A stretch of DNA of 41,843 nucleotides from a virus, in the IMG/VR virus record IMGVR_UViG_3300022751_000007, positions 1 to 41,843 of that record; one strand, given 5' to 3'. The number at the start of each line of letters is the position of its first letter. Position 1 is the stretch's first letter. Under the pieces are notes generated by a model that worked only from the letters and a program-made list of their open reading frames with translations, was not told the DNA's origin and searched no databases. Positions 2,255 through 32,705 of this stretch are shown in pieces. The translations under genes were made by a program, and so were the position numbers.

Positions 2255-5200
2255 TTATCCTTTTTCGGTTAAAATAGTGCTGTTTATTGATTGAGATTTG
2301 AATGCCTTAACCATCGCATCAGTACTTTTCCTTTGCTCTGCAACTAATAAAGATAAATCAATCGACGAACCACCCGAAGCAGTATTTAAATTTGGCTTAG
2401 CTAACATCCTTTTAAAATCTGGCCCCGAAATAATTTCGGTTCCTGCACTTACATTTGTTAATGTTGGTGTGCTTGGCGTTACCCACATCGAACCATTTGG
2501 CTCAATAACAAGCTCACTCATTCCGCCATCGCCAACCCAAGCCGAGCCAGAATAATTATCTCCTTTTGATTTACCGCCTTTGTAAGCTGGAATAGGTTGT
2601 GCTAATACTGTAGCTATTTGCAATGCCGCAGTAGCGGCTAAAATAGCATTTAATGGCAAACCTAAAAAACCTAATACACTTATGTTTTTTGAATAACCAA
2701 CAGCATAATTAATAATTATTGAAGCAATTGCAGCGGCCTTATCGGCTTTTGCTTGCCTTATCTTAGTTTGCCTTACTCGTTCATCAATTTCAGCTTGTTT
2801 AGCCTCTTGTCGTGCGTTAATTAAATTGATCTGATTGGCTTTATCTTCTTCGCTTGCAACGCTTTCGTTTACGTTTTCAATCTGGCGTTTAGTATTTTTA
2901 TCTAAAGCCTTACTTTCAGAATCTAAATCCTGTAATCTACTTTCAAAAGTTGAACTTGACAATCCTTTTAAGAAATCAAAAGCCTCTTTCGAGAAATCTA
3001 CTATCGAATCCCTAACTTGTTTTTGCTTTTCAAGTTCACGATCTAAATCGCTAATTCTTGCATCAGTACCTAACTTAGATAACCTGATTTTTAAAGCGGT
3101 TAAATCCCTTTGATCTTTAGCTAATTTTTTATCGTTTGAACTATCGAATTTGGCAAATTCTTTTTCGTTATCAATTACCTGCTGTAAAGCATCGATTTGA
3201 GTTTCTAAACTCTCTTTTGCCGCATCGTTTGAAATACGTAAGCTTTCTGCTTCGAATTGCTTTTGATTTATTAAACGATTCGCATAACTTTCAGTTAATT
3301 TTTGCTGAGCTTCAGAACGCCTGTTTTCAATATTTTCTAAAACCTCGTTTGTGCTTTCAAGTATTTTAGCATTTTTATTGTTTTCTAGATCAAGTTCACG
3401 CTGAGAATAAGACTTAATTAAATCTAATAAATCCTTTCCGGCACGTTCGTTTATTTTGTACTTTCTTTCGGCTGCATCGCTTTCGACTTTTTCATCTTCG
3501 GTGTTTTGCTCCGCTCTTGCTTGACCTACGTTTTTTCCTTGTTTAATCTTCTTAGCGGCATCCAATTCGTTTAAACGCTCACTTAGATTGACAAAGTTAT
3601 TCAATGCCGCTAATCGAGTATCTAAAGATTTTTGTTCGTCTTTTGCGATAGCATCTTGCGCATTTCGTTCGGCTTCAATTTCGGCACGCAAAGTATCGAT
3701 GTAAGAAGTGTCAATTTTTACTTTTTTATATTTAGGCTCTTTGAAGTCATTAGTTATAGAATCTATTAGATTACTTTGTCCAGCATACTTAATTAAAAAA
3801 TTAGCTTGCCCTTCCAATATTTTATCCTGTTCGTCCTGTATTTTTATGGCCGCCCCTGCTCTTTGTTGAGCAGGCTTAATAATATTATCGTTAATTAATT
3901 TATTGGTTGTTGCTGCAGAGTTGCCAAATGCCTTTCTTTGTGCGTCAGTTCTTCCAGCTTGAACTTGCGCTTGTCTATTTAATTGGTCAGATGTTTGGGC
4001 TGCAATCTCATTTTGCTTTGCATTATTTATCTTTTCTTTTTGAAAAGCGATATCGGAACGTTTAGATTCTATTTCTGCTAATTTATCCCTTACGGCCCTA
4101 GCTCTTGCATTTAAAAGAATTTCCTTAGTTAAATTTTTATAAGTTTCAGCCTCATTTCCGTTTAGAATAGATTGAGTAGTTGAGTTTTTAAATGAATCTG
4201 GATATTCTCTTTTTAATTCTTGCGCTGCTTTTACCCTTTCTCGCATTGAAAGCGTTACATCGGTAGCGGCCGCATAAAGTATTTTTAAACTCGTAACATC
4301 TTTTGCATAATTCTGAGATGTAGCCGCATTTACTTCGTTGTAAGCTCTTAGATTTTCTTTTAACTGAGATATCTTTGTTTTGAATATTTCTAATTGAGCT
4401 ACATAATTAATAATCGGTTCAACTGCAAAGCCTAGTAAGCCAGCCAATCCAACGCCAGGTAAAATGTTAGCAACAAAGCGTAATGCTGAAAATGCTTTTC
4501 CTGCTCCTGCGGTTACTTTATCGAATGCACTGCCATAATTACCGACATTTCGTTGCGCTCTACCCGTTGACTTTTCAAGCGTTAAAACTTGTTCGTTTAG
4601 GCTCGGTATTAATTTAGAAAGTCTTTGACCAAACCTTGATTCTCTTTCTGAGACATTTAAGCCATCGAAAACTGATTTTAAACGAATTAAAGCCGCTCGC
4701 CTCTGGTCTAAACTACCTTTTGCCGCATTAAGTTCTTTTGCTTGGTTTTTTAAAGCCAAAGCATTCGCCTGTAAATTTAGCTTTTCCTGAGCAGCCATTA
4801 AAGCAAGCTGTTTTCTGGATAAAGTATTATCGTTATTTGCTTTGGTATTTTGTTTTACCGCACCTGTTTCAGCGGTAATAGCATTTATTGTGTTTGCTTT
4901 TGCTATATTCTGAGGGCTGACGGTTGGTCCTGTTGTGGCAATTACTCCGTTTGGGCTTGAATTAATTAAATCTTGTTGAGTAGATGCAGAAATTATTTTA
5001 GCACGTTTTTCTAAAGCCGCTGTCCTTGCGTTTGCGGCTGCTGTTAACTTTTGCTCATTAGCTAGTTCTTTTGCCGCCCTTGCATCTGCTTTTGATTGCT
5101 CATTCGCTTTGAATGCCGAAAGTTTTTCCTCTGCCAATTGCCTTTGAGCAACTAATTTTAATCCGTTTTCGTTGGACTTATTTACAGCCTCTGTGTTTTT

Positions 5201-16774: not shown

Positions 16775-16981
16775 TTAAACTTTGTCTTTTAGCGAAAGTA
16801 TTTTATTTCTCTCATTGTAATAATCCGAATTCCATTGCCCTGATGTTTGCTTTAAGTTTGCGTGCGCCTCGTCAAGTTTTTGATTAGCGTATAGCTTCAT
16901 GGATTTAATACATAGCTCTACATTTATGTAATCTGGATTATCGCCTGTTACCTCTGAAAGTATTTCTTCTGCTGTTTTCAT
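16775..16981 (-). CDS. Hypothetical early protein (68 aa)
   Basis: It starts MKTAEEILSEV and has an amphipathic helix with MKLYANQKLDEAHANL. Proteins with this 'KTAEEIL...YANQKLDEA' pattern are familiar from Bacteroidota phages and prophages but have no known function. It overlaps the preceding paralog gene by four bases (ATGA). Confidence 0.6.
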   Translation of the reverse strand: MKTAEEILSEVTGDNPDYINVELCIKSMKLYANQKLDEAHANLKQTSGQWNSDYYNERNKILSLKDKV

Positions 16982-17343
16982 AGTAATCCCGATGTATTAA
17001 GTTCTTGGCCTGTATCAATATTAATTTTATTCTGAAAATCGTGTAAATATCCTCTTCTAACATTACCAGTCCAAAAAGTTTGATCTTCATTGTCAATTCT
17101 AATTTTATAATCTAATTCTTTTGAATACCAATAGGATTGACCAAAATAACAATCTTCATCCGTCTTCTCAAACCCACACTTCAAAAGTATTTCTTCGTTC
17201 AATTCGACTGGAGATTTAATAATTTCACCAATTGAAATAGCTACATATGGTTCTATAAAAGAAAACTCTTTCAATCCCCAGACAAAAGGCTTGTCATCAT
17301 AACCTATGAATATGTTTCCTACTCGAATTTCGTTTGCTTTCAT
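16978..17343 (-). CDS. Repeated-family protein, copy A (121 aa)
   Basis: One of three diverged paralogs in this genome. The shared frame is MKANEIRVGN at the start, EEILLKCGF in the middle, a central variable part, then LHDFQN and the end GQELNTSGLL. The ATG at 17343 is chosen because it matches the other copies and because the longer start would overlap the ribbon-helix-helix gene. The family is common in Bacteroidota phages; its function is unknown. Confidence 0.7.
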   Translation of the reverse strand: MKANEIRVGNIFIGYDDKPFVWGLKEFSFIEPYVAISIGEIIKSPVELNEEILLKCGFEKTDEDCYFGQSYWYSKELDYKIRIDNEDQTFWTGNVRRGYLHDFQNKINIDTGQELNTSGLL

Positions 17344-17365
17344 ACCTGTAAATTTACCTTTTAAT

Positions 17366-17524
17366 TCAATGCGGTTTTGTAACAATGTCGTCACGCACCA
17401 ATCCTTCGATATAAGCGGCTTGATTTGATTTTGAACGTATTATATCAATTACATCATTTGAAAGCCTTAAACTAAGCGGTTTCTTTGTTTCTGACTGTTT
17501 TGGTCTGCCTCGTTTGTTTTTCAT
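17366..17524 (-). CDS. Ribbon-helix-helix DNA-binding protein (52 aa)
   Basis: The sequence runs from MKNKRGRPKQ through a strand (PLSLRLS) and two helices (NDVIDIIRSKS, NQAAYIEGLVRDD). This is the Arc/CopG ribbon-helix-helix layout, with a basic AT-hook-like GRPK tail. Such dimers bind operators. Its target is unknown; the 12-base palindrome at the 18094 promoter, just upstream, is a candidate. Confidence 0.6.
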   Translation of the reverse strand: MKNKRGRPKQSETKKPLSLRLSNDVIDIIRSKSNQAAYIEGLVRDDIVTKPH

Positions 17525-18850: not shown

Positions 18851-19199
18851 CTTCCAGAGATTGTGTTAAAGCGAAAATATCCTTTCTAAGCTTATCATTT
18901 TCTTTTTCTAACTCAAAGTACATTTCTTTATTTTTTTTCAACTGAGAGCTTTGTTTTATGCATCTAGCGGTTAATCCGTCTAATATATCCATGCATCCTA
19001 ACAAGGTATCTATGCGTTTTTTGGATAATTCTATTTTCGGGCTATTCGGGTTTGATTTTCCAAATCTAATTAATTCGCTATTCATTTCAACAGAAATCCC
19101 TCGGACTATTGAAATAGCATTCTGGTAATTTTCAAATGACTCAAAAAACAAGTGCCACGCTTGAATTTGATTTTCGTAATGTTCTAAAAGGTATTTCAT
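18837..19199 (-). CDS. Hypothetical coiled-coil protein (120 aa)
   Basis: Almost entirely helical; residues 85-118 (KKNKEMYFELEKENDKLRKD) have heptad character, suggesting a dimer. Not recognised. It overlaps the upstream paralog gene by four bases (ATGA). Confidence 0.55.
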   Translation of the reverse strand: MKYLLEHYENQIQAWHLFFESFENYQNAISIVRGISVEMNSELIRFGKSNPNSPKIELSKKRIDTLLGCMDILDGLTARCIKQSSQLKKNKEMYFELEKENDKLRKDIFALTQSLEDETN

Positions 19200-19615
19200 A
19201 ACAATCCGGATGTATTAAGTTCTTCGTCTGTTAATGCGAAATATAGATTTTGAAGTTGGTGCAGATATTCAATACAAAATATTGTCCTGTATGCTGTGTA
19301 TTCTTCATAATGACTTTTAACTTTTATTTTGCCATCAATAAAGTCTACGTCTAACTTGCCGCCAAAATCCATACATAAGTCGCCCTCTGATTTACCATTA
19401 TAAAATTTGTAACCACACTTCAAAAGTATTTCTTCTGAAAGGGGTAATCCTGTTATTTGCCAAGCTAAATTGTTATCTTTTGAGGTTTTATTTGGATAAA
19501 CATGAATATGATCATCCAAACCGACACCCCCCAGCTCGTCTACAGTTAACAATGTTTTAGTTAAATTATCTATTAGAATATTTCCAATTCTAAGGTCAGT
19601 ATTTTTGATACTCAT
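19196..19615 (-). CDS. Repeated-family protein, copy B (139 aa)
   Basis: The second member of the three-copy family: start MSIKNTDLRIGN, middle EEILLKCGY, then YLHQLQNLYFAL and end EELNTSGLL, nearly the same C terminus as copy A. The ATG at 19615, two bases after the upstream stop, matches the family start; a longer frame begins at 19645 but overlaps the zinc-site gene. Function unknown. Confidence 0.7.
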   Translation of the reverse strand: MSIKNTDLRIGNILIDNLTKTLLTVDELGGVGLDDHIHVYPNKTSKDNNLAWQITGLPLSEEILLKCGYKFYNGKSEGDLCMDFGGKLDVDFIDGKIKVKSHYEEYTAYRTIFCIEYLHQLQNLYFALTDEELNTSGLL

Positions 19616-19617
19616 GA

Positions 19618-19806
19618 TTATAGTTTGTTTGTGTATTTTCCGCAATTACTACATTTATTATCTGAAAAAATGCCTCCATTTATATCTTTATAATAATCAC
19701 TATGAAAGCCTAAAAAGCATTTTGTATTATTTATCATTTTCTGTATCCTTGCTTTTCTTTGAATACTTTTTATTTTTTTCAAGTGCCATTCTATTGATTT
19801 TTCCAT
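19618..19806 (-). CDS. Small putative zinc-binding protein (62 aa)
   Basis: A basic helix (residues 5-25) precedes CFLGFHSDYY and a C-terminal CSNCGKYT. One Cys, one His and a CxxC pair could bind one zinc ion. Short proteins of the type 'CFxGFH ... CxxCG' recur in Bacteroidota and their phages without known function. Confidence 0.55.
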   Translation of the reverse strand: MEKSIEWHLKKIKSIQRKARIQKMINNTKCFLGFHSDYYKDINGGIFSDNKCSNCGKYTNKL

Positions 19807-21859: not shown

Positions 21860-22204
21860 TTAGAATAGTTTTGATACATCTAATTCCTGCTCAGTATTGA
21901 AGAATACAATATTTTGAAGTTGGTGCAGGCTTTTGATATCTATAACTTTACCATTACTTTCGAATTGAAAATACTCATCATTAGTAATATAGCCAATTCT
22001 GAATAAAGCTAATTCGTAATCAAACCATTGATTCATTAAAACAAATCCACAATTCAAAAGTATTTTTTCTGTTATTTCTATTGGAAGTATAGCTAATAAA
22101 TCTTCTTTCGTATCTAATAAAGATAAATCACTACCTGTAATTTTAAAAAACTCTCCAGATTTATGCTTTAGTACGTTTCCTATTCTTAATTCGTTTGCTT
22201 TCAT
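21860..22204 (-). CDS. Repeated-family protein, copy C (114 aa)
   Basis: The third and most diverged copy: start MKANELRIGN, middle TEKILLNCGF, then LHQLQNIVFF and end EQELDVSKLF. It starts with an ATGA overlap to the 46-residue gene. Three copies retained at separate places in a 41.7-kb genome suggest related but non-redundant roles, which are unknown. Confidence 0.7.
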   Translation of the reverse strand: MKANELRIGNVLKHKSGEFFKITGSDLSLLDTKEDLLAILPIEITEKILLNCGFVLMNQWFDYELALFRIGYITNDEYFQFESNGKVIDIKSLHQLQNIVFFNTEQELDVSKLF

Positions 22205-22724: not shown

Positions 22725-23081
22725 CTACGTATAATTAGTTAATTTAAGAACTTTTAATACGTCCTGAGTAAACACTTTATCTCTTCCGTTTAAATCGTCG
22801 AAAGTTCTTTGTGCGTAAATAATAGTTGAATGATCTCTGTTGAAAAGCTTGCCGATATTTACAAGTGTTGCCTCTGGATTATATTTTCGAATTAAACCAA
22901 TTGCTATCTGTCTGGCAACTACTATGGGCCGTTTTCTTGTTGGACTTACTAGCTGATCTTTTGTGACCTCTAAGGCCATGCAAACCGCTTGTATGATTTC
23001 GTGCTTATCAACAATTTTAATTTTGTTCTTAGAAAAGAACTGATCTTTTTCGCTTAATCCTGCGTATATGTATGGGGTCAT
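22725..23081 (-). CDS. Stand-alone DnaA domain IV protein (118 aa)
   Basis: Residues 25-115 match the C-terminal DNA-binding domain of DnaA: RKRPIVVARQIAIGLIRKY (49-67) as the first recognition region and IGKLFNRDHSTIIYA (76-90), the DnaA signature with D83, H84 and T86 that read the DnaA box. AAA+ and N-terminal domains are absent. It could bind DnaA boxes on the phage (one at 21596) or on the host origin, either guiding replication or blocking host DnaA. Confidence 0.85.
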   Translation of the reverse strand: MTPYIYAGLSEKDQFFSKNKIKIVDKHEIIQAVCMALEVTKDQLVSPTRKRPIVVARQIAIGLIRKYNPEATLVNIGKLFNRDHSTIIYAQRTFDDLNGRDKVFTQDVLKVLKLTNYT

Positions 23082-23520: not shown

Positions 23521-23540
23521 ATCCGTTACAATCCGTTACA
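23521..23540. repeat. Tandem 10-base repeat upstream of the promoter box
   Basis: ATCCGTTACA occurs twice in direct succession between the terminator and the promoter box at 23474. Two same-facing sites one helical turn apart suit a dimeric activator or repressor. The function is unknown. Confidence 0.5.
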
Positions 23541-23566
23541 AAACAAAAACGCCTCATAAAGAGGCG
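23533..23566 (-). terminator. Rho-independent terminator after the nuclease-motor gene
   Basis: CGCCTC (23550-23555), loop ATAAA and GAGGCG (23561-23566) form a perfect GC-rich stem. On the minus strand it is followed by TTTTTGTTTTGT. It ends the transcript that begins at the divergent promoter region. A second small hairpin (CCGATA/TATCGG, 23590-23612) precedes it. Confidence 0.85.
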
Positions 23567-23620: not shown

Positions 23621-25726
23621 TTATTTTTGAAAGTAATATCCTTGAAAGCGCACCGTATCTCTGTATTGAGGCGATTTCATTAAGCCATCCCCATTGCCAC
23701 GTAAATTCTCGGCTCCTGGCTCGTCTATCATAACTACAGAAGAAACTTGCTTATCTATCTTAAAACACACCTGTACAGCAAAATTAGCTTTACTGTTGCC
23801 GTTAATTACTGTTGTATCGGCTCTTTGTGTAGCGCAAACAATTCTTAGGCCTGTAGAACGCCCTTTTTGCAAAAGCATTTGTAGGTTTTCGTTTAAAGAT
23901 TTTAACTGTCCTACTTTTTCCATTTTAAGTTTTGGAGATGGAGGAATACCCATCATCATTTCGGCAGCTGATTGTTTATAAAAGCCTTTTTCAACCATTT
24001 CTTTAATATCTAATTGATTGCCTTTTCTTGCGGTCATGGCTGCATCCGTAAACTCGTCAAAGAAAACAACTTTACGGGCATTGCTTTTTGATTTTACCTT
24101 AGCGTTCATTTCTTCAACTAGATATTCTAATTCTTTCTCAATCTCTAAAATATCGTTGATAACTTTAAACTCATTTGCATAATCTGTAAATTCTTCTTTA
24201 GGGTCTAGGATTACAATATCTTTGATTCCTGCGGCTTTCATGTATTCAAGCATAGAAATAAGCTCAACCGACTTGCCGCTACCTGTACCGCCGCCAATTA
24301 AGCAATGAGGTGTTGATTGGTTGTTTAAATCCCAGGTAATTACATTGCCAAAATTATCCTCGCCTAAAGGAATTTTCTGATCAACAACCTTAGATTTATC
24401 CCAATGGAGAATGTCACTATTTTTAGATATGGTTTCTAAAGCCAAATAAGAGCTACCCTCATGCACAACTAAATCTTTTGCGATACGGATGTTTTCAACA
24501 TCCAAAGCGTTTGCAATATCTAATCTATGCGGAGTGATAGAAGATATTTTAACACCGCTTGAAACGGCTAAAAGGTATGTATTTGATGAATAACCCTCGA
24601 ACTCATGTTTAACTTCTACAATCTTACCAAAAGACCTTAAAGAGTGTTCTATTTTTTGTGCGTATGACATATTTTTATTACTTAAGTCGTATTGAATGAA
24701 TGATGATGCTGATTCTTTGAATTGTTTAATGATTGACGGATTGATTGTTGAAAGCGTTACGTCTCTTGTTTTTTTCAGACGTTTAGCAATTAATTCCTTT
24801 TTGTTTTCTGGCACGTTAAAATCTTCAATTTCTGCAATCATTGTTTTGCACCAGAAATCGTAAAGCTCTGATTTATCAACGTAGTTATCCGTTGTATTGA
24901 TTGTATAAACAAAATCTGGATCATTTACCGCCGTTAACATTGATTTTAAAGGCTCATAAAGTAAAGCCTCATAAAGCTTGCGAGTGTTTTTATTAACCTC
25001 TACAATGTATTTGTTAATTTGATTCGCACCACTTTTGTTTGCAGAGTATTTATTTTCTAAAAACCAGCACTCATTAACCTCTAAGCCTGTTTTTGCCTCG
25101 TAAACATTCACATAAGTAATTGCTTGCTGCCCTACGGTTAACCTTAAATCTTCTTCATCTGAATGGGAATTTTTAGACTTATGGTCAATCACAACAACTT
25201 TATCATTTTTGGTCTGAATAACTAAATCTATCTTAGCATGACAAGGCAAAGGCAAATCAACACCATTAACAGTTAAGTACTCATCGCAATAAATCTCAAC
25301 ATCTAAAATTTCTTTAATTTCATCCAGATAGGTTGTTGATTCTTTAAAGAAATTGTTGATTAATTGAGTAACTGTTTTGGTTGCTTTTAACTTGCATTCT
25401 TCTACGGTTGGTGTTGTTTTTTGTAGCTTCCATAAAGGTATTTTAAAATCCTCTATGTAATCAAATGCGAAAGTTAGTAAATCTGCTACGTCAAAAGCTT
25501 CTCCTTTTTGTCTCGCTTTAAAATACCTGTCTAAAGCATCATGATAAGCTGAACCAGCAACTGTTGTAGCAGATGATTTGCCGCGCTGACCGTAAATCTC
25601 TTGCATTTCAAAAGCTTTAGGGTTACGGGCAAATGTAGATAGCTTAGAATAACTCCAGCTATTTATAAGGAAGTTGCTTTGCAACTCCCTTAATTCGTTG
25701 TCTGATAAATCTTTGTATTTATGCAT
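23621..25726 (-). CDS. RecB-like nuclease fused to FtsK-type DNA translocase (701 aa)
   Basis: Residues 1 to about 260 form a PD-(D/E)XK nuclease of the RecB/Cas4 kind: H62 (GSAYHDAL), D167 (AKIDLVI), D181-x-K183 (VIDHKSK) and Q201/Y205 (QQAITY). Residues about 355-701 form an FtsK/SpoIIIE motor: alpha-domain strands, Walker A GGGTGSGKS (478-486), Walker B VVFFDE (553-558), LQKGRSTGLRIVCATQR (619-635) and NLRGNGDGLM (674-683). No gamma domain follows. It probably resects or processes DNA ends while translocating. Its ATG overlaps the stop of the annealing-protein gene (TAATG). Confidence 0.8.
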   Translation of the reverse strand: MHKYKDLSDNELRELQSNFLINSWSYSKLSTFARNPKAFEMQEIYGQRGKSSATTVAGSAYHDALDRYFKARQKGEAFDVADLLTFAFDYIEDFKIPLWKLQKTTPTVEECKLKATKTVTQLINNFFKESTTYLDEIKEILDVEIYCDEYLTVNGVDLPLPCHAKIDLVIQTKNDKVVVIDHKSKNSHSDEEDLRLTVGQQAITYVNVYEAKTGLEVNECWFLENKYSANKSGANQINKYIVEVNKNTRKLYEALLYEPLKSMLTAVNDPDFVYTINTTDNYVDKSELYDFWCKTMIAEIEDFNVPENKKELIAKRLKKTRDVTLSTINPSIIKQFKESASSFIQYDLSNKNMSYAQKIEHSLRSFGKIVEVKHEFEGYSSNTYLLAVSSGVKISSITPHRLDIANALDVENIRIAKDLVVHEGSSYLALETISKNSDILHWDKSKVVDQKIPLGEDNFGNVITWDLNNQSTPHCLIGGGTGSGKSVELISMLEYMKAAGIKDIVILDPKEEFTDYANEFKVINDILEIEKELEYLVEEMNAKVKSKSNARKVVFFDEFTDAAMTARKGNQLDIKEMVEKGFYKQSAAEMMMGIPPSPKLKMEKVGQLKSLNENLQMLLQKGRSTGLRIVCATQRADTTVINGNSKANFAVQVCFKIDKQVSSVVMIDEPGAENLRGNGDGLMKSPQYRDTVRFQGYYFQK

Positions 25727-26628
25727 TATGGCATTTGTTCTTCTGCGTTAAATAATCCTGGTTGTTTTTCGGTAATAATAGTTGCCGATGGAACTTTAAC
25801 CTCTGGCTTTTCTTCTTTTTGCTCAGGCTCTTTTTTCGCTTCGGCCTGTTTAGCTTTTAAATCCTCTTTCTTTTGTTCGGCTGTTTTTTCAGCTTTCTTA
25901 AAGATAATTTCTGGTGTTGTATCTCCATCTTTTAAAGCTTGACCTACACCAATAAGCGTAACTAAATCATCGTTTGTAAGCTGGCTTATTTGCGTTTTAC
26001 CTACAATTTTCAATACCGATTCTTCATCTTGCTCATAACCTTTTTTAAATGCAGTAAAAACCTGTTTAACCTTTTTAGCAAACTCTGATGCATCGCCAAT
26101 GATTTTTTGTTGTGAGGCTCTGTAAATCTTATCAGTTATAGCTTTAGGTATTACTGAAAATATAGCATTACGTAAAGCAATTGAATTTGCAGCGTTGCCC
26201 GTAACGATAATCATATCATCTTTCATTTTACCGCTGTTAGTCATAATAGAACGCTTAACAGTCACTTTAACGGCTACGTTCTTTTGTAAATCCCACGCAA
26301 TCGCTTCGCTTTCTACAAACTTTTCAGTTTGATTAATTACTTTAGCTTCGCCCCTGAAATTACCCCAGTTTTGCATGATTATCTTTGCAAGATGTACGGA
26401 CGGCCCTGTAATTGCTTTGCCGCCTCTTGGCACGCTATATCCGCAAGTCATTGCGGTTTCTACATCTATTGTAGCCATTGCAAGAGCATCGTTAACACAG
26501 CTTGTAATATCGCGTTTAAACATATGCGCTGTACTTACTTGAATATCGATTGAAGCTTTATCTCTCAATATTTGCATTTCAACACCCTCTAAAGGCATGA
26601 TTTGAATTTCTTCTGAATTGTTTTCCAT
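25726..26628 (-). CDS. Putative single-strand annealing recombinase (300 aa)
   Basis: Residues about 25-215 contain VPRGGKAITGPSVHLAKIIMQNWGNFRGEAKVI and the stretch GNAANSIALRNAIFSVIP, which I recall from a phage family treated as RecT/Erf-like annealing proteins. The C-terminal 80 residues are a disordered Lys/Glu/Pro tail. Annealing proteins are paired with an exonuclease; here the partner is the overlapping nuclease-motor gene. The exact superfamily is uncertain. Confidence 0.55.
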   Translation of the reverse strand: MENNSEEIQIMPLEGVEMQILRDKASIDIQVSTAHMFKRDITSCVNDALAMATIDVETAMTCGYSVPRGGKAITGPSVHLAKIIMQNWGNFRGEAKVINQTEKFVESEAIAWDLQKNVAVKVTVKRSIMTNSGKMKDDMIIVTGNAANSIALRNAIFSVIPKAITDKIYRASQQKIIGDASEFAKKVKQVFTAFKKGYEQDEESVLKIVGKTQISQLTNDDLVTLIGVGQALKDGDTTPEIIFKKAEKTAEQKKEDLKAKQAEAKKEPEQKEEKPEVKVPSATIITEKQPGLFNAEEQMP

Positions 26629-32382: not shown

Positions 32383-32634
32383 GCAGGGATATAGTTCCCT
32401 GCTGACTGTTTAAGCTACCGCTCTAAGCGATGGATTATACATTTGTACAACTTTGCCAGTTGAATTTAAAACAATACTCTGAATAACCTAATACGTAGCC
32501 TGTCAAAACCATGCTACCCCAGCAGAAAGGCGATCATTAATCAATCCTTTCTTATTTTAGTTGGTAATGTGGAGTAGGAGGGATTCGAACCCTCGTCCAA
32601 ACTAATTTCAATTAAACGTCAATGTAGTGTTTTG
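32383..32634 (-). ncRNA. ssrA: tmRNA, circularly permuted (two-piece) ssrA gene
   Basis: The acceptor piece comes first: GGACGAGGGTTCGAATCCC followed by TCCTACTCCA (to 32570), the typical tmRNA 3' end with a perfect T arm. About 50 bases later the coding piece starts GGGGTAGCATGGTTTTGAC (32520 down), the typical tmRNA 5' end. GGGGTAG pairs with CTACTCC over seven bases including a G3-U70 wobble, the alanine identity signal, and the discriminator is A. CAGGCTA (32502-32496) pairs with TAGTTTG (32604-32598) as helix P2. A reading frame GKVVQMYNPSLRAVA ends at a TAA (32412), followed by hairpin GCAGGGA/TCCCTGC (32383-32402). CCA is not encoded. The outer ends are approximate. Confidence 0.75.
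32524..32552 (-). other. Hairpin in the tmRNA intervening segment
   Basis: AGAAAGG (32524-32530) and CCTTTCT (32546-32552) form a perfect stem in the roughly 49 bases between the two tmRNA pieces. Permuted tmRNA precursors contain such a segment, which is cut out by tRNA-type processing of both ends. Confidence 0.55.
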
Positions 32635-32705
32635 TGGGAAAAATAGGAATCGAACCTATGCAGTTATGATTTACAGTCATTCTGAGTAACCCTGACCATT
32701 TTCCC
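32635..32705 (-). tRNA. tRNA-Tyr (GTA), short variable loop
   Basis: Acceptor GGGAAAA/TTTTCCC is perfect, the T arm is ATAGG-TTCGATT-CCTAT, and the anticodon loop CTGTAAA on an AATGA/TCATA stem (four of five pairs) gives GTA for tyrosine. The variable loop is only five bases (ACTGC), whereas bacterial tRNA-Tyr has a long variable arm. The D stem does not pair well. CCA is not encoded. It lies directly ahead of the tmRNA gene. Confidence 0.6.

Follow-up and report, generated by a model that had tools for sequence, protein, structure and literature searches.

Exonucleases of the Lambda Red, RecET and YqaJ-RecT type are stand-alone enzymes that need no ATP, and the combination of an exonuclease with an annealing protein is a classic phage module. 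RecB-type nucleases degrade the strands that are fed to them. Motors of the FtsK alpha/beta type are hexameric rings through which duplex DNA is pumped, and the gamma domain is the part that orients FtsK. HerA-NurA consists of two proteins, with NurA as a dimer seated on hexameric HerA, and the fold of NurA is RNase H-like. In archaea and Deinococcus, this pair of ring motor and nuclease resects DNA breaks to 3′ single strands (PMC9960219). In DndH, a restriction-type nuclease and a HerA/FtsK motor are held in one chain, in some cases with an FtsK alpha domain (PMC10853773). The association of a nuclease with a HerA/FtsK motor is a known theme, with separate partners in HerA-NurA and a fusion in DndH, the latter in defence.

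The window (the whole stretch of DNA analyzed) is a 41.8-kb virus record with genes for terminase, portal, head protease and endolysin. In it, a nuclease and an FtsK-type motor are encoded in a single chain, directly after a putative annealing-protein gene (Table 1).

Table 1. Position of the fusion gene, its parts and its neighbors in the window
Feature	Position	Strand	Evidence
Nuclease-motor fusion gene, 701 residues (codons)	23621..25726	-	ORF open and unbroken; kept in 67 further loci
Residues 1-325, PD-(D/E)XK nuclease (RecB/AdnA/Dna2/Cas4-like)	24752..25726	-	Pfam, alignment, fold model
Residues 325-352, flexible linker from nuclease to motor	24671..24754	-	pLDDT <50 at 325-349
Residues 353-701, FtsK alpha and beta motor, without gamma	23624..24670	-	Pfam, 2iuu match, fold model
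Walker A, residues 478-486, with K485	24269..24295	-	translation and alignment
Walker B, residues 553-558, with D557 and E558	24053..24070	-	translation and alignment
Codons 340-361, the gene's peak of synonymous constraint and mRNA openness	24644..24709	-	codon scan, mRNA folding
Met353 codon, proposed internal start of a 349-residue motor-only protein	24668..24670	-	conservation, codon constraint, mRNA openness
Upstream partner gene, 300 residues, PHROG 3657, putative single-strand annealing protein	25726..26628	-	context
Terminator-like hairpin and T run just past the fusion gene	23540..23566	-	consensus match only

The fusion and its overlapping partner gene

In Pfam, the first half of the protein matches PDDEXK_1 (residues 23-215, 5.2e-13, above the curated cut-off) and the second half FtsK_alpha (residues 350-418, 2.9e-6) and FtsK_SpoIIIE (residues 450-635, 9.3e-8), both above cut-off. 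From sequence alone, residues 356-697 match P. aeruginosa FtsK (2iuu; 3.7e-20). The nuclease core motifs H, D, DxK and QxxxY are present together with the nuclease fold (PF12705 kind), as are the alpha and beta FtsK domains with Walker A and B. The open reading frame and these matches bear out the first-pass annotation, which had described one 701-residue protein joining a nuclease to an FtsK motor. All the nuclease and motor residues that it named (H62, D167, D181-x-K183, Q201xxxY205 and K485) are found, and so are the motor motifs (GGGTGSGKS in Walker A, VVFFDE in Walker B at 553-558, and NLRGNGDG). No Pfam match to the C-terminal gamma DNA-reading domain occurs in the fusion, and the chain stops with the motor.

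The AlphaFold model, a check suggested with that annotation, was computed for a single chain with 37 relatives as input and has a mean pLDDT of 86.5. Both halves fold confidently, and the linker is disordered at residues 325-349 (pLDDT <50). The pTM is only 0.48 because the nuclease and motor domains have no fixed mutual arrangement. The best fold match of the motor is FtsK (3.9e-22), with DNA-bound FtsK among the matches, including a structure stalled at a DNA end. For the nuclease half, the matches are Dna2 (6.1e-10), the Cas4-like ACE1 (2.1e-8) and AdnA (6.9e-8). In a viral structure library, a relative of 400 residues (A0A8S5RDL0) is annotated as a PD-(D/E)XK nuclease.

The stop codon of the partner gene overlaps the start codon of the fusion (TAATG), as had been pointed out; the annealing function then given to the partner is taken here from context, since no Pfam model matches it, PHROG 3657 has no function assigned, and there is no decisive fold match. 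Searches with Pfam, PHROG, profiles and folds returned no recognizable annealing family or fold for it. Relatives of this partner adjoin RecE exonuclease genes in Mycobacterium phage Sparky and Gordonia phage Twister6, and its context points to an annealing protein. When the partner families are compared profile to profile, even RecT and Bet are linked at just 35%; the comparison is thus too insensitive to speak for or against a common origin of the window's partner.

Several other genes of the window lie in the early and replication regions. A stand-alone protein with the DnaA C-terminal DNA-binding domain is encoded at 22725-23081 (minus strand; Bac_DnaA_C in Pfam, 2.1e-19). Three look-alike small proteins, spread across the early region at 16978-17394, 19196-19645 and 21860-22204 (minus strand), are probably three members of PHROG 10066. 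Near the lysis region, a phage-borne tRNA-Tyr (gta) occurs at 32634-32705 (minus strand).

A conserved fusion in a fixed place beside exchangeable annealing proteins

The fusion is no local accident. It occurs in 67 further loci (49 from IMG/VR and 18 from GTDB contigs), or 68 with the window. These are loci and not independent lineages, since certain loci stem from one phage or from near-identical ones (identical fusions are found in L041/L068, L044/L076 and L034/L061, for example). The loci were retrieved with the nuclease half alone as query, and the motor is joined to the nuclease in every locus with an open reading frame reaching that far. In the GTDB genome contigs, a three-sequence query retrieved none and a deeper alignment gave the 18 loci. 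The hosts are nearly all Bacteroidota, with cultured carriers in Chitinophaga, Flavihumibacter, Paraflavitalea, Chryseobacterium, Tenacibaculum, Pedobacter and Wenyingzhuangia; the lone outlier, a short contig of a Sedimentibacter assembly, is probably misbinned. Among the plasmid matches listed, all are without the nuclease domain and none covers 80% of the fusion.

Pairwise identity averages 56% in the nuclease half and 60% in the motor half, and the active sites are intact and invariant. H62, E144, D167, D181, K183, Q201, N225, K226 and K485 are present in all 50 fusions compared (the window and 49 relatives), Y205 in 49 of 50, and D557/E558 in 49 of 49. Two genome loci fall outside a simple Walker A pattern, with a normal GxxxxGKS still there. 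Three copies are incomplete: L038 ends at a contig end, L054 is cut short, and in L009 the frame is broken once, close to Walker B (near 3804), the remainder lying in another frame, from either a sequencing error or a natural loss. The top motor matches in the phage collection (H1, H2 and H5) were set aside as ordinary chromosomal FtsK contigs and not phage fusions. Three records deposited as bacteriophage (L055, L056 and L057; MT838987, MT836718 and MT837656) resemble pieces of bacterial chromosomes, with chromosomal FtsK and housekeeping genes.

The upstream genes were sorted by Pfam, PHROGs and all-against-all BLAST, the members from genome loci being placed through BLAST clusters. Over the 68 loci, the partner is a Sak4-like ATPase (16), a protein of PHROG 3657, the window's own kind (13), RecT (9), a member of an unclassified family with L005 as its type (9), ERF (6), Rad52-like (5), Bet (3), PHROG 15333 (3), the RecT-like PHROG 561 (2) or the singleton of L037 (1). 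Recognized annealing or recombinase families (Sak4-like, RecT, ERF, Rad52-like, Bet and PHROG 561) stand upstream in 41/68, other conserved families in 26/68, and none in one locus (L043). In a few loci (L033 and L046), an extra gene sits between partner and fusion; in L033 (5477-6004), it is, by eye, an HNH-type endonuclease-like gene that separates the fusion precisely from the gene for the annealing protein. Families of unnamed function in the annealing slot are seen at L005 3457-4197, L026 3350-4057 (PHROG 15333) and L037 5186-6001. The partners of PHROG 3657, PHROG 15333 and the L005 and L037 kinds are candidate new annealing proteins, and these four families are candidates for Bacteroidota genome engineering. 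Downstream from the fusion, the direct neighbor is an SSB-like gene (by eye) in the Tenacibaculum locus (L068, 10076-10486) and a DnaQ-like exonuclease (PHROG 192) in L001 (6343-7107) and L002 (8141-8890).

Along the fusion tree, the partner type switches at least 29 times, an approximate count from a short tree search with 18 of 61 inner branches weak. Because the upstream annealing families vary in this way, the fusion appears to fill the exonuclease slot of a module of the Lambda Red/RecET type. Unrelated annealing proteins set repeatedly before the same enzyme are the pattern expected of the exonuclease of such a module, and the arrangement that defines it, a nuclease gene adjoining an annealing-protein gene, is found in 41 of the 68 loci. 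No second recombination exonuclease appears among the best 25 of the 54 families of the window. It is, therefore, likely that the fusion acts as the exonuclease in a recombination module of the phage, with a double-strand DNA motor of its own to drive the nuclease.

In this module, the FtsK alpha/beta part would form a ring at the end of a phage DNA and pump the duplex toward the tethered RecB-like nuclease domains. Those domains would digest one strand during this ATP-driven resection, the 5′ strand by analogy. The annealing protein from the adjoining, overlapping gene would take over the exposed single strand, coat it and pair it with its complement. Overall, such a machine would resemble HerA-NurA or RecBCD feeding a partner of the RecT/Red-beta type.

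The fusion of a nuclease to a motor would also suit the processive digestion of host chromosomal DNA, and FtsK-type motors are fast along chromosomes; the place beside annealing genes would then reflect early-operon organization only. However, the neighbors are specifically annealing proteins, from many unrelated families and at nearly every locus. Several copies are, moreover, probably in prophages, since they are located on long contigs from the genomes of cultured Bacteroidota, and destruction of host DNA is less expected there. Such a role is quite unlikely. The first-pass annotation had coupled end processing to a double-strand DNA translocase in a machine for either recombination or degradation of host DNA. 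The recombination module is favored by the conservation of the fusion, by its intact active sites and by its swapped partners, and the adjacency to annealing genes nearly everywhere leaves the degradation option with less support.

A phage-borne defense enzyme against rival phages or plasmids, as proposed for DndH, is a very improbable role. Nucleases are indeed fused with or linked to HerA/FtsK motors in DndH and related systems (PMC10853773), and PADLOC gives weak matches to the SspH, mad8 and HerA models. These matches are, however, confined to the motor. Neither the DndFGH operon context nor any other defense partner adjoins the fusion, and annealing and replication genes are found there instead.

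The open mRNA site at Met353

Third codon positions were scanned in 55 fusion genes less than 80% identical, against the codon usage of each gene and conditioned on the first two bases. The most constrained stretch of nine codons starts at codon 342 (mean z 3.64, with a permutation 95% limit of 2.85, reached in 0/5000 permutations) and the second most constrained adjoins it; the constrained region extends up to and beyond Met353. A second codon test left out the serine bias, since lineages tend to keep their class of serine codon. The conserved Met353 had been noticed before testing; the codon scan nonetheless spanned the entire gene. The methionine marks a boundary, with the disordered linker before it and the FtsK alpha domain after it.

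ATG is present at Met353 in 67 of the 68 loci, and the exception (L065) has an ATG two codons upstream. The mRNA is there the least structured in the gene (mean -1.3 kcal/mol; the true start has -3.2 and the gene's other internal Met codons have -7.2). It is also more open than synonymous shuffles keeping the protein and the codon usage (z 5.9, the largest among the columns tested), and the A content downstream from it is the highest of the gene. The signal is present separately in the genome loci and in the IMG/VR loci. The open mRNA site at Met353 is under selection.

This pattern fits an internal translation start and strongly suggests one, which would probably yield, besides the fusion, a predicted 349-residue motor-only protein. 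An in-frame internal start gives in McrB-S a motor-only form able to make rings (PMC3874153), and Cas11 is a precedent for internal-start products (PMC11899642). The first-pass annotation had counted two separate products as a refutation of the single fusion protein. This may hold in part, with the predicted motor-only product standing beside the fusion and not replacing it.

Synonymous constraint does not itself name its cause, pausing between domains is a known idea, and no ribosome-binding motif was identified at Met353. The site could then serve in translational pausing or mRNA processing, or be an RNA element of another kind, with the full-length fusion alone being made. The near-invariant ATG, with its displaced counterpart in L065, speaks against these explanations, as do an mRNA more open than at the true start or in synonymous shuffles and the peak of A content downstream; we regard them as possible, on the doubtful side. 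A frameshift signal at the domain junction, considered on reading the codons, was dropped: a slippery heptamer is not seen there, and the open A-rich ATG explains the pattern better. No other copies of the motif at codons 346-349 occur in the 18 loci where it was matched, each having it once, and this single copy per locus indicates that it is not a Chi-like repeated site.

With an internal start, the motor-only form would lower the share of nuclease-bearing subunits in the ring. The fusion and the predicted short form might then co-assemble as mixed rings with few nucleases per ring, a resection engine shared by about ten kinds of partners; we hold this tentatively, at slightly under an even chance. 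The predicted internal start makes the composition of the ring directly testable.

Comparison with known systems

If the proposed role is right, the fusion adds another route to the single strands used in recombination, with a nuclease pulled along by a pump for double-strand DNA, and differs both from a passive exonuclease and from a helicase-nuclease. Since one conserved engine stands beside about ten kinds of partners, several without a known role, the loci offer a natural test of whether an exonuclease and its annealing protein need to be matched. A motor-towed exonuclease in an annealing module, indifferent to its partner and conserved in phages of Bacteroidota, was not found in the open-access papers covered. 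The different design claimed in the first-pass annotation finds partial support; the concept is not private to phages, as HerA-NurA and DndH show.

As in Lambda Red, RecET and YqaJ-RecT, where an exonuclease gene adjoins a gene for a single-strand annealing protein, the nuclease gene stands, in 41 of the 68 loci, next to a gene of a recognized annealing or recombinase family, but the probable exonuclease is here joined to a DNA motor instead of being motor-free. With RecBCD, AddAB and AdnAB, the fusion shares a RecB/AdnA-type nuclease domain physically tied to an ATP motor; in those enzymes an SF1 helicase unwinds the DNA, whereas the fusion has an FtsK-type double-strand pump. DndH differs by its many extra domains, its defense operon, its occurrence in cellular genomes and the lack of a link to annealing proteins. 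The likeness to McrB-L/McrB-S lies in the in-frame internal start giving a motor-only form, which is predicted only in the fusion; the McrB motor, a GTP-dependent AAA+ restriction motor, is unrelated.

In HerA-NurA, likewise, a motor of the HerA/FtsK superfamily, there a ring, is coupled to a nuclease. The fusion has neither a HerA-type motor nor a NurA-type nuclease: it is one chain with an FtsK-type alpha/beta motor and a PD-(D/E)XK nuclease, and it occurs in phages beside annealing proteins. Mixed rings, for which the chances appear not quite balanced, would give from one gene the layout with few nucleases per ring that HerA-NurA obtains from two. The fusion is best read as a one-chain analogue of HerA-NurA.
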